This document shows, in pieces, positions 35,105-38,535 of a DNA stretch of 64,000 nt (positions are counted from its first letter, which is position 1; each line of letters starts with the position of its first letter). The position numbers and the translations under genes were made by a program. Below the pieces are notes generated by a model. It had not been told where the DNA came from. It was given only the letters and a program-made list of their open reading frames with translations, and ran no database searches. This DNA comes from Natronococcus sp. AD-5 (GTDB lineage: Archaea > Halobacteriota > Halobacteria > Halobacteriales > Natrialbaceae). The stretch covers positions 186,001 to 250,000 of the forward strand of contig NZ_CP132294.1 of assembly GCF_030734285.1 (NCBI RefSeq), written 5' to 3'.

Positions 35105-35557
35105 ATGTCACGTTCACCCGTCGACGCCATCCGGACGCGATTTCGGGCGTTACTCTCGACGACGCGATTCACGCAGTTCGCCGGCGTCGGTCTCGTCGGA
35201 GCGACCGTCGATAACGCGGTTCTCTTCCTGCTGGTCGAACTGACGTTTCTAGGGCCGGTCGTCGCGAAGATCGTCGCCTGGGAACTCGCCATCGCGGTCA
35301 TCTTCGCGATCAACGAACGGTGGACGTTCGCCAGCCACGGGAGGGTGGGGCCTCGAGCGCTCGGCAGACGCTTTCTCCGGTCGAACGTGGTTCGATTCGC
35401 CGGATTTCTCGTGACGCTGGCGGTACTCTCGGTACTGGTGTACTGGTTCGACGTCTGGTACGTGGCGGCGAACGTCGTCGGAATGGCCATCGGCTTCTTC
35501 GTCAACTACACCTGTGAGAGTCTTTACACGTGGAAAGTGCACCGAGAGCAGCGGTAG
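35105..35557 (+). CDS. GtrA-family membrane protein
   Basis: 150-residue protein with four predicted membrane helices. Motifs: TTRFTQFAGVGLVGATVDNA at the N-terminus and a final block with MAIGFFVNYTCESLYTWKV. GtrA-family proteins are thought to move polyprenyl-phosphate-linked sugars or support cell-surface glycosylation. No glycosyltransferase is adjacent here. Stand-alone unit upstream of the tRNA gene. Confidence 0.88.
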   Translation: MSRSPVDAIRTRFRALLSTTRFTQFAGVGLVGATVDNAVLFLLVELTFLGPVVAKIVAWELAIAVIFAINERWTFASHGRVGPRALGRRFLRSNVVRFAGFLVTLAVLSVLVYWFDVWYVAANVVGMAIGFFVNYTCESLYTWKVHREQR

Positions 35558-35617
35558 AAACCCACACACGGCGCCCGAATCACAACCCTTAACTAGCGCA
35601 GCGGGTTACGAAGATGT

Positions 35618-35692
35618 AGCGGGATGGGATAGCCAGGAGATTCCGGCGGGCTCATAACCCGCAGACCGGTAGTTCAAATCTACCTCCCGCTA
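35618..35692 (+). tRNA. Initiator tRNA-Met (CAU)
   Basis: 75-nt cloverleaf. The acceptor stem AGCGGGA pairs with TCCCGCT (A1-U72, an initiator hallmark), the anticodon arm is GCGGG-CTCATAA-CCCGC with anticodon CAT at 35653-35655, and the three G:C pairs at the base of the anticodon stem are also initiator-specific. The T arm contains GTTCAAATC. No CCA is encoded and no intron is present. Partial copies of its 3' end follow immediately downstream. Confidence 0.95.
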
Positions 35693-35943
35693 TGTTTTGG
35701 CGCGAACAGATTCGTGAGCGCCATCCATAGCACGTGGTGATTTGAAGCAGAGAGCGGCTTGCTGCGACGTGGTTCAAATCGACCCCCCGCTATTTTTCGA
35801 GGCGAATAATCACTCCGAACGAAGCGAGGAGCGTCGTGAGCCTCGAAAATCGTATAGAGTATCTCTGAAGTAGCCGACGAGGGAGCGGAGCGACCGAGGT
35901 CGGCGTAGTTCAAATCCACCTCTCGCTGCGTTTTGGCGCGAAC
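35669..35943 (+). repeat. Tandem partial copies of the tRNA-Met 3' end (att-like remnants)
   Basis: The tRNA's T-arm, acceptor end and flank (35669-35707) recur at 35905-35943 with 35 of 39 identical positions, sharing the downstream TTTTGGCGCGAAC. A third, more diverged copy starts at 35769, exactly 100 nt after the first, and matches GTTCAAATC and CCCGCTAT. Neither extra copy can form a full cloverleaf. This is what repeated integration and loss of tRNA-targeted elements leaves behind. No integrase gene is in the vicinity. Confidence 0.75.
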
Positions 35944-36053: not shown

Positions 36054-36572
36054 CTACCGCTTCGGTCCCGGGATCAGCGGCTCGTACTCCTCGTGCTCGA
36101 ACGACCCGAGGACCGTCCCGTCGATCGTCTTGACGTGCGTGTAGAGGACGCCCTCGTCCTCCGCGGAGGTAATCATCCCGTCGGCGAGCGTCAGGTCGTA
36201 CCGGCCGGCGATCAGGATCGACCGGTCGGACGACGGGTCGATGAACTCCGTGGCCAGGTACATGAATCCGCTGATCGGAGCACCGTAGGCCAGGTACCCG
36301 GTGAACTCGTCGCTGTCGAAGGTCTCGGTGAACTCGTCGGCGTCTTGTCAGGGATGACGTGCATCAATCCGAACGTGTCTTCCTCACCCGCGTCTCGACT
36401 CCCGGTATCGGTCTGGGCGGCCATGACCGCGACGACGGGTGGGACGTCGTCGCGACGCTGCTCGGCGATCGCCGCCGTGTCCTCGAGCGTCTGTTTCCAG
36501 GCGGTCGTCTGAACTCTCCGAATCGCGCCGTCGTTCGGTCCGGGGATCGACGGCGTGCAGATCGTCGTTCAC
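36054..36572 (-). pseudogene. DUF7529-like protein, disrupted by two frameshifts
   Basis: Three frames are needed to read one protein: MNDDLHAVDP (GTG at 36572), GPNDGAIRRVQTTAWKQTLED through FGLMHVIPDK, and ADEFTETFDSDEFTGYLAYG through EEYEPLIPGPKR. The breaks lie near 36542-36545 (a G4 run) and 36342-36346, where adding one G restores DKDADEF. The joined protein resembles a family of about 170-residue haloarchaeal proteins (DUF7529 as I recall it) of unknown function. Being next to the tRNA-derived repeats supports real decay of an accessory gene rather than error, but this is not decisive. Confidence 0.7.
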
Positions 36573-36702: not shown

Positions 36703-38535
36703 TTAGGCTTCGTCTTCCAGGTTCTCCTGCCAGTCGAGGTAGTACCCGGTCGCCTCGGTCGGCATCTTGGAGGTGTCAGTGTTCTTCGGTTCGAACCCGA
36801 AGTGACCGTACGCGACGTCCGGCCAGCTCCAGATCCAGCCGAGCGAGTACATCTCGAGGTCACCGTTTTCACCGCGATCCTGGATCGTCGAGAACTGCGT
36901 TTCGTCGTTGGAAATCTCGACCGGGAGGTCACCGAGCTTCTGGTTGATCAGCTCGGCCATCTCTCCGTACTCCGGGGCGGACTCGTACGTGGAGGCCGTC
37001 AGCTCGAACGGCTCGTCCTCGGTGAACTTCGTCTCCTCGAGCACCTCCCGTGCGCTCTCGACGTCGGTCTCGTTGACGCCGTACGGCCATTCGTCGACCC
37101 ACTCCTCGTAGCCGTCGTCGCCGGTCGGCCACATTCGCGGCGGGGTGAAGCTGAACGCCTCGAACCCGCGCTCCTCGAGGACGTCTTCGATGAGCTCCTC
37201 GTGATCGACGGCGTACGCGATCGCCTGTCGGACGGGTCGCGGGACGTTCGTGACGTTAAACGCGAAGTAGTACGTCGCCAGTTCAGGGACGGCGAGATAG
37301 TTTGTCTCCTCGCCGTTCTCGAACGGACCGTACGTGCCGACCTCGCGACCGCTGTCGTCCTCCTCGGCGTCGATCAGGTCGGGATCGTACTGGGAGGTCG
37401 GGATCGAGCTGTTTTCGAAGACGTCCGCGTTCTGCTCCATTACGTAGGTAAACCGCGACTCCGGATCTTCGTTGATCTCCCAGTGGACGGACTCGATGCT
37501 CGCCACGGTGCCGTGGTAGTTGTCGTTGCGGACGACCCGCACCTCCTCGCCGGGAGTGAATTCGTCGAACTCGAAGGGACCGGTCCCGTTGGCCATCTCG
37601 GTCCGGAACTCGTCGTGCTCGACCTCGCCGTCGTACCCTTCGACGTCGCCGACGATCCCTTCCGGAACGATGGCGAACCCGTGGTAGGTGAGGACGTCCA
37701 GTACGGCCGGGTTGGGTTCGCGGAGGGTGAGTTCGACGGTCCGGTCGTCGACGGCCTCGACGCCGATCGAGTCGGGGACAACGCCGCCGTCGTCGTCCTC
37801 CTCGTGCTCGATGCCGAGCCCCAGCGGCGTATCGAGGATGAAGTTCCGTCGCTCGCTGTGCTCGGATTCGGCGAGCCGGCGGAACGAGTACACGACGTCG
37901 TCCGCCGTCAGTTCCCTGCCGTCGTGGAACTGGACGCCCTCTTTGAGCGTGAACGTCCAGATCGTGCTGTCCCAGGAGGCTTCGAACTCCTCGATGAGCT
38001 GGTTTTCGACCTCCGCGACTCCGTTGGGGTAGTGGGTCAGAGTCTCGTAGATCTGGTTGACGACCGTTCTCGGCGCGGCGTCGGTCGACATGATCGGATC
38101 CACTTCGTCGAAGCTGCTGATGATGAGGTTCAGCTCGGTATCCCCCTCGATCTCCACCTCGTTGTACTGCTGGTGGTATGACCCGAGTGCACCTATCTCT
38201 GGGATGTCCACGTAGTCGTACCAGAACCGTTCGCCCTTGCTGTGGTACAGCGGCAGCAGGACCATATCGTCCCTGACGGCCTCCTCGATCTCGACGTACG
38301 CCTCGTTACGGATGCCCTCGGCATCGGGGCCGGGATTCTCCAGGACCGTTTCCCAGGCTGCCTGCGCCTTATCCGCGTGCTCGTTCACCTCGTAATTGGT
38401 CTCGTCGTCGTCCTCGTCATCATCGTTGAGAAGAGCAGAACAACCAGCGAGCCCCACGGTCGCGCTTCCCCCGAGAAGCGCGAGCAGCTGTCGTCGCGAC
38501 TGATCTACACTTTTCCCATCCGGACTATCGGTCAC
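36703..38535 (-). CDS. Family-5 peptide-binding lipoprotein, circularly permuted (DppA-like, copy 1)
   Basis: 610-residue Dpp/Opp-type solute-binding lipoprotein. The Tat-type signal SRRQLLALLGGSATVGLAGC ends in the lipobox (LAGC). The order of segments is unusual. Residues about 47-130 (AQAAWETVLENPGPDAEGIR, AVRDDMVLLPLYHSKGERFW) resemble the last part of a normal family-5 protein. The canonical start (LNLIISSFDEVDPIMSTDAA, QIYETLTHYPNGVAEVENQL) follows at about residue 134. The protein ends with TGYYLDWQENLEDEA, where the missing tail would continue. So the sequence is a rotated family-5 fold. The GTG start at 38535 has a TATA-like box about 40 nt upstream. It lies on the minus strand; the damaged transporter genes are 1.4-8 kb upstream of its start. 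Confidence 0.88.
   Translation of the reverse strand: MTDSPDGKSVDQSRRQLLALLGGSATVGLAGCSALLNDDDEDDDETNYEVNEHADKAQAAWETVLENPGPDAEGIRNEAYVEIEEAVRDDMVLLPLYHSKGERFWYDYVDIPEIGALGSYHQQYNEVEIEGDTELNLIISSFDEVDPIMSTDAAPRTVVNQIYETLTHYPNGVAEVENQLIEEFEASWDSTIWTFTLKEGVQFHDGRELTADDVVYSFRRLAESEHSERRNFILDTPLGLGIEHEEDDDGGVVPDSIGVEAVDDRTVELTLREPNPAVLDVLTYHGFAIVPEGIVGDVEGYDGEVEHDEFRTEMANGTGPFEFDEFTPGEEVRVVRNDNYHGTVASIESVHWEINEDPESRFTYVMEQNADVFENSSIPTSQYDPDLIDAEEDDSGREVGTYGPFENGEETNYLAVPELATYYFAFNVTNVPRPVRQAIAYAVDHEELIEDVLEERGFEAFSFTPPRMWPTGDDGYEEWVDEWPYGVNETDVESAREVLEETKFTEDEPFELTASTYESAPEYGEMAELINQKLGDLPVEISNDETQFSTIQDRGENGDLEMYSLGWIWSWPDVAYGHFGFEPKNTDTSKMPTEATGYYLDWQENLEDEA

Follow-up and report, generated by a model that had tools for sequence, protein, structure and literature searches.

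Short, gene-less repeat units lie directly behind tRNA genes throughout the Halobacteria, and the existence of this family as a class-wide object is, in our judgement, practically certain. Their anatomy, linkage to tRNA genes, tRNA-specific arms, class-wide range, turnover and polarity, the sharing of one module (R) between tRNA genes and two inversions of this module can be read directly from the sequences. A covariance model built from 44 units, chosen out of 81, matched at least 238 of 242 sampled Halobacteria genomes and at least 72 of 73 genera (lower bounds, as at most 21 candidates were scored per genome). This repeat family sits in the cell's most conserved genes and varies between sister species. 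We regard the units, with moderate confidence and on the strength of sequence comparison, as minimal recombination cassettes distributed across the class, for whose movement a trans-acting tyrosine recombinase with its crossover point in the T-loop would be responsible.

The initiator tRNA-Met locus of Natronococcus sp. AD-5

The window analysed here is a stretch of 64,000 nucleotides (C1:186001-250000) of the 5.17-Mb genome of Natronococcus sp. AD-5 (G000 in the coordinates below). Its single tRNA gene, tRNA-Met(cat), was placed at 35617-35693 by ARAGORN and at 35618-35692 by Infernal. In this initiator tRNA-Met(cat) gene (35618..35692, forward strand, as are the core and both units) the core, composed of the T-loop TTCAAAT, the 3' strands of T-stem and acceptor and the discriminator, occupies positions 35673..35692. 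Unit 1 begins with an L hairpin module, in which a T-run is followed by a GGCGC..GCGCC hairpin (35693..35734), continues with the inverted core TGGTGATTTGAA, the reverse complement of T-loop and T-stem (35735..35746), and with GCAGAGAGCGGCTTGCTGCGACGTGG, an R module that belongs to the 28-nt class (35747..35772), and closes with a direct copy of the 3' end of the tRNA, matching at 18 of 20 positions (35773..35792). Unit 2 repeats this order with an L hairpin module, TTTTTCGAGGC..GCCTCGAAAA (35793..35857), a degenerate inverted core, AGTATCTCTGAA, matching at 8 of 12 positions (35858..35869), an R module of the 39-nt class with a CGAC..GTCG hairpin (35870..35908) and a direct copy matching at 17 of 20 (35909..35928). 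Behind this last copy an L-type trailer starts anew on the same strand (35929..35943) with GTTTTGGCGCGAAC, as it does directly behind the tRNA. The covariance model matched unit 1 at 35735-35784 (45.4 bits) and unit 2 at 35858-35920 (28.0 bits).

A 39-nt repeat at this tRNA had been reported in the first-pass annotation and was recovered in full, with copies at 35669, 35769 (31/39, 79%) and 35905 (35/39, 90%) and spacings of 100 and 136 nt. The copies had been taken there for old attachment sites of integrating elements that are now lost. Their att-like character agrees with our data, as the core is also used by an integrase element at tRNA-Phe and the arrays are polar (see below), whereas loss of large elements is probably not the explanation, since the ~100-nt units, with their defined L and R modules, are in their own right a standard family that nearly all haloarchaea carry. 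The copies at tRNA-Met are the visible ends of this widespread family of gene-less units, and the elements are not simply lost. Islands expected between the copies did not materialize: neither a cargo-bearing version nor a distant copy was present at the initiator tRNA-Met of the relatives read (~14-20 kb, 6 kb in one of them). Presence of the repeats with one spacing in every relative, which the annotation had named as a refutation of its reading, was not observed either, as sister species are unlike one another in the number, spacing and type of the repeats. Many relatives carry extra copies in varied order, e.g., modules S1-S2 in Natronococcus sp. AD-5 and S2-S1 in its sister G001.

The tRNA gene is preceded by a GtrA-type gene (35105-35557), and farther upstream lie ORFs which we take to be ribosomal-protein and translation-factor genes. 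Downstream, the decayed gene suspected at 36054 was identified by profile match as a fragment of a DUF7529 gene, which is no part of the units. This broken gene (36054-36424, reverse strand) has its C-terminal part in one frame and its upstream part in another: the 69-aa ORF at 36054 covers only profile positions 96-160 of 160, and the remainder looks, by eye in stop-to-stop frames, to continue upstream in a different frame. An ABC solute-binding protein gene (36703-38535) follows downstream of it.

Range and anatomy of the units

A short stretch of the tRNA-Met locus also matches behind other tRNA genes, where it is accompanied by copies of the 3' ends of those tRNAs. Copies of a tRNA's own 3' end (at least 17 of 20 positions matching within 230 nt) followed 16 of 48 tRNAs in Natronococcus sp. 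AD-5, 18 of 46 in the sister genome G008 and 20 of 42 in G063, a member of a different family. When the end of another tRNA was searched for in the same place, the mean count was 0.15 (maximum 1), 0.4 and 0.55, respectively; with 16 of 48 set against 0.15, the copies are not due to chance. The three-genome count, for which nearly all tRNAs were detected with Infernal, is the sole unbiased count per genome. ARAGORN hits with introns longer than 150 nt, one spurious tRNA-Val, hits lacking a TTCRA T-loop and loci that were too short were dropped before the counts of own copies and of arrays.

Matches to the family are closely linked to tRNA genes. The best 30 loci were all located 39-268 nt 3' of a tRNA on the same strand, and in a scan of the species-genome collection with one strict R pattern all 15 stretches returned lay immediately behind a tRNA. 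In 474 kb of Natronococcus sp. AD-5 DNA the model gave 7 matches, composed of 6 tRNA-trailing units (one of them displaced) and 1 reverse-strand reading, and no stray match away from units. Among the 12 matches listed for this genome 10 are close behind a tRNA, 1 is displaced and 1 is an orphan; the latter has arms of tRNA-His type and no adjoining tRNA on its strand (G000:C1:306992-307059). In a scan of the phylum the model matched 22 of 24 Halobacteria, and no match was obtained in 124 other Halobacteriota genomes (106 of these counted without individual entries). Four Halobacteria genomes without a model match (G069, G072, G045 and G258) are possible natural negatives in a hunt for the enzyme.

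A unit is ~100-140 nt long and has a fixed order of modules: tRNA 3' end, L hairpin, inverted T-loop and T-stem, R hairpin, and a direct copy running from T-loop to acceptor. Among the first 95 units measured (spacers of 47-193 nt) no integrase or other gene was found, and the inverted copy of T-loop and T-stem (12 nt, at least 9 matching) was present in 68, compared with 4.4 in shuffled spacers. R modules fall into length classes of ~28, 39, 43-46, 51 and 57-70 nt with few intermediates. The direct copies begin at the TTC of the T-loop and are ~20 nt long. The same one-base insertion in the T-loop of the copies, with TTCACAAT in place of TTCAAAT, is seen behind Pro(tgg) and Arg(tct) of Natronococcus sp. 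AD-5, Trp of G014, Lys(ttt) of G008 and Phe of G063.

The inverted arm is specific for its own tRNA across five T-stem positions (3.16 of 5 vs 2.27, s.d. 0.10, in a permutation test), and the acceptor is at background. Unusual T-loops are mirrored in the cores, namely TTCGAAT of Arg-cct, TTCGAGT of Asn and TTCGATT of His; at Ser(cga) of Natronococcus sp. AD-5 a T-loop change is common to copy and inverted core and absent from the tRNA. Such a left arm is the sequence expected of a hairpin-capped end at the T-loop, and it ends at the T-stem, which would suit an origin by copying in situ, where inverted arm and direct copy result from a template switch or fold-back replication at the palindrome of the T-arm with no recombinase involved. 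We consider this improbable, as neither the R modules common to unlinked tRNA genes nor the range confined to Halobacteria would be explained by it.

Inverted core, copy and the foot of R together form a 15-bp stem, in which 85.6% of cells are paired (79.5% in shuffles and 20-50% in slid versions) and 49 cells are doubly changed in a compensatory manner, compared with 19.6 in shuffles. The ratio of G.T to A.C mismatches favours the top strand as the one that folds in the T-loop (34:8) and the inner foot (79:7), and does not in the outer arm (55:93) and the R stems (1:6). The covariation in the stem is compatible with recombination of a folded single strand; the conserved hairpins would fit a role in RNA too. 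Under the latter explanation the trailer is co-transcribed, its hairpins and the strand opposing the T-arm act in processing, termination or regulation, and R modules become shared through gene conversion. Besides the compensatory changes, the near-universal presence of the units speaks for such a device, as does the folding of the locus stretch, which surpasses that of shuffles in RNA (z -2.14) and to the same degree in DNA (z -2.20). In each of the three genomes, nevertheless, a majority of tRNA genes have no recognisable unit, sister species differ in presence and type of unit at the same tRNA, and inversions of R are tolerated. Moreover, in an Rfam 15 search of the locus nothing but the tRNA reached the gathering score, and the trailer matches no family. 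Taken with these points, an RNA device appears distinctly unlikely.

Turnover, module sharing and integrase elements at tRNA genes

Among the loci listed, both the presence and the type of unit at the same tRNA vary between sister species. In 48 arrays of at least two units the tRNA-proximal copy was better preserved in 23, the distal one in 5, and both equally in 20 (sign test with ties dropped, p about 0.001), which is the polarity expected under repeated insertion beside the tRNA; the data on arrays and inversions come from a set of 245 genes biased toward loci that were fetched because they matched. The Ser(cga) locus of Natribaculum breve bears an A-B-A array of units with two identical 129-nt spacers. 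In Halobacteriales archaeon YIM A00013 (L175:1622-2090), tRNA-Leu(tag) is followed by five more copies with spacers alternating between 71 and 35 nt.

R modules were closer to those of other tRNAs in the same genome than to their counterparts at the corresponding tRNA of the other two genomes in 13 of 14 cases in G063, 9 of 12 in G008 and 7 of 10 in Natronococcus sp. AD-5. Under a stronger control, with size-matched R modules of other tRNAs from other genomes, the excess was clear in G063 (22/27) and weak in the other two (9/14 and 9/16). Identical R modules in G063 are found at Val(gac) and Val(cac) (38 nt, with unrelated L modules) and at Lys(ttt) and Arg(ccg) (28 nt). L modules, too, recur behind different tRNAs. 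Inversions of R are rare, with 2 events in 154 distinct R modules as against 592 similar pairs in the same orientation. At tRNA-Met, the R module of G007 corresponds to the one of G005 in reverse complement (0.84 vs 0.24), and Ser(tga) of G008 carries an inverted R of the 39-nt class (0.51 vs -0.29); both sit between intact inverted arms.

At tRNA-Phe of Natronococcus sp. AD-5 an element of ~3.9 kb (L188:3480-7613; G000:C1:3808180-3812313), which carries a threonine-synthase-like gene and encodes a tyrosine recombinase of 337 aa, separates the tRNA from a 20/20 copy of its 3' end, with an old unit beyond. True integrative elements therefore use the same T-loop core as the units. The attR of this element has no inverted core, the element lacks flanking unit arms, and no cargo-bearing unit was found in ~0.4 Mb of Natronococcus sp. 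AD-5. Past the displaced unit lies a segment that is similar, by eye, to the tRNA-Phe anticodon arm. The unit of tRNA-Arg(ccg) (G000:C1:2991426-2991492) is found ~5.1 kb from its tRNA beside a short acceptor-end match (CCCGTGGCGCCCG). This displacement appears to stem from insertion at that end, which another kind of element may use.

These elements bear on the explanation that comes closest to the first-pass reading, in which the units are scars of successive conventional integrative elements (viruses or plasmids) with att sites in the T-loop, their genes deleted and their attL and attR arms fused over ~100 nt. The shared T-loop core, the polar arrays and the displacement of the unit at tRNA-Arg(ccg) by one apparent insertion of ~5.1 kb are in its favour, as is a prophage at tRNA-Ala of Haloquadratum that is marked by a 22-nt tRNA duplication (PMC3119063). 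Random deletion would not be expected, however, to leave identical modules and length classes behind many tRNAs across the class, and the attR at tRNA-Phe has no inverted core. Furthermore, neither of two R-module patterns matched any viral contig, and 50,697 phage records gave no match to either of two unit consensus queries. With one consensus query a single plasmid record was matched, a 0.83-Mb replicon of Natronorubrum bangense that itself bears a tRNA-Met-like sequence; the tRNA-Met locus as query recovered just tRNA genes, carried by phages, by haloarchaeal megaplasmids or by other plasmids. On these grounds we rate the scar explanation as unlikely, and retain cassettes moved by T-loop recombination as the preferred reading.

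Candidate mechanism and comparison with known systems

The T-arm, with its 5-bp stem and 7-nt loop, is shaped like the core site of a tyrosine recombinase. Of the two sides of a cassette, one would consist of the acceptor end with the L hairpin and the other of the inverted half-site of the T-arm with the R hairpin, and the displaced tRNA 3' end would close it. A trans-acting recombinase, which may be a Xer-type enzyme of the host and/or the integrases of resident elements, would cross over at the 7-nt T-loop sequence between the tRNA and a small R-core-L circle. Each insertion would supply an identical new tRNA 3' end and displace the old one ~100 nt downstream, and repeated insertion would build arrays with the newest unit beside the tRNA. 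Crossover between inverted cores would flip or exchange R; hence R would spread among tRNA genes and the tRNA-specific outer arms would stay put. Crossover in the T-loop would thus account for arms matching the own tRNA, arrays, polarity, R sharing and inversion. The recurrence of L modules behind different tRNAs is not explained by it alone. A duplex circle of 100-160 bp is also awkwardly small for a recombinase, which counts against the circle route; this difficulty would not arise with a folded single strand such as integrons use. Neither a circle nor an excision product nor a polymorphic population was observed. The acting enzyme, circular intermediates, current activity and any host benefit are points at which we infer beyond the alignments. 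If units are moved in this way, they would represent a mobile unit consisting solely of recombination sites, and would help to explain how tRNA genes remain intact despite the successive elements they host.

In a bolder version, possible but rather doubtful, tRNA genes of Halobacteria would be integron-like platforms at which foldable, target-armed, gene-less cassettes are inserted, shuffled and inverted by a class-wide Xer-like recombinase, cargo-free and persisting throughout the class. Integron cassettes and their attC sites share with the units inverted cores around a hairpin, head-to-tail arrays and insertion beside a fixed site. The attC consensus is GTTRRRY/RYYYAAC. The unit cores, GTTCAAAT and ATTTGAAC by inspection, deviate from it; in addition, the units have no cassette gene, and their platform is a tRNA gene.

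Other known systems share part of this anatomy. Like haloarchaeal elements that integrate into tRNA genes with a T-loop att, such as the Haloquadratum prophage and the tRNA-Phe element described above, the units show a flanking direct repeat of the tRNA 3' end from T-loop to acceptor, a restored 3' end and an older copy displaced downstream; unlike these, they are ~100-140 nt long and gene-less, have an inverted core and two hairpins, and are found behind many tRNAs of a single genome. SNJ2-type elements target tRNA-Met; they are haloarchaeal, as are the hosts of the units, and use a tyrosine recombinase. The integrase family of SNJ2-type elements is confined to Halobacteria, and its att sites comprise ~13 bp at the amino-acid attachment end (PMC8371274). 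Unit copies differ from a short att of ~13-14 bp at the acceptor end, since they start at the T-loop and measure ~20 nt. MITEs, PATEs and SMRs of Haloquadratum (PMC3119063) are likewise short, non-coding and hairpin-bearing, and they are mobile; the units are limited to tRNA 3' flanks and have tRNA-specific arms, and no link to transposon ends was seen. Because defining features of each known family were sought in the units and not found, the units were assigned to none of them. They are new as an object, even if their chemistry is that of ordinary tyrosine recombination; no description of them was found in searches of an open-licence library.

Casposons can target tRNA 3' ends. Non-autonomous transposition, either by an IS200/IS605-type Y1 transposase in the manner of PATEs or by a Cas1-type casposase, would agree with the small size and terminal hairpins of the units. 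However, Y1_Tnp was not found in the unit-rich genomes G014 and G143, nor Cas1 in G014, G047, G100 and G166, and inverted arms specific for the target are unexpected of a transposon, leaving this route scarcely credible. For the preferred tyrosine recombinase, counts of PF00589 genes singled out no enzyme, such genes being present in every genome looked at, whether unit-rich or unit-free. A XerA-like protein of 345-381 aa, conserved in 5 of 5 genomes read for it, is by inference only the first candidate. The unit, its site and the expected products (excision junction and inverted R) are defined to the base, and direct experiments are therefore possible in Haloferax. Natronococcus sp. AD-5 has a second initiator-type tRNA-Met gene (G000:C1:3753931-3754005), which bears no unit and has tyrosine recombinase genes ~3 and 10 kb away.
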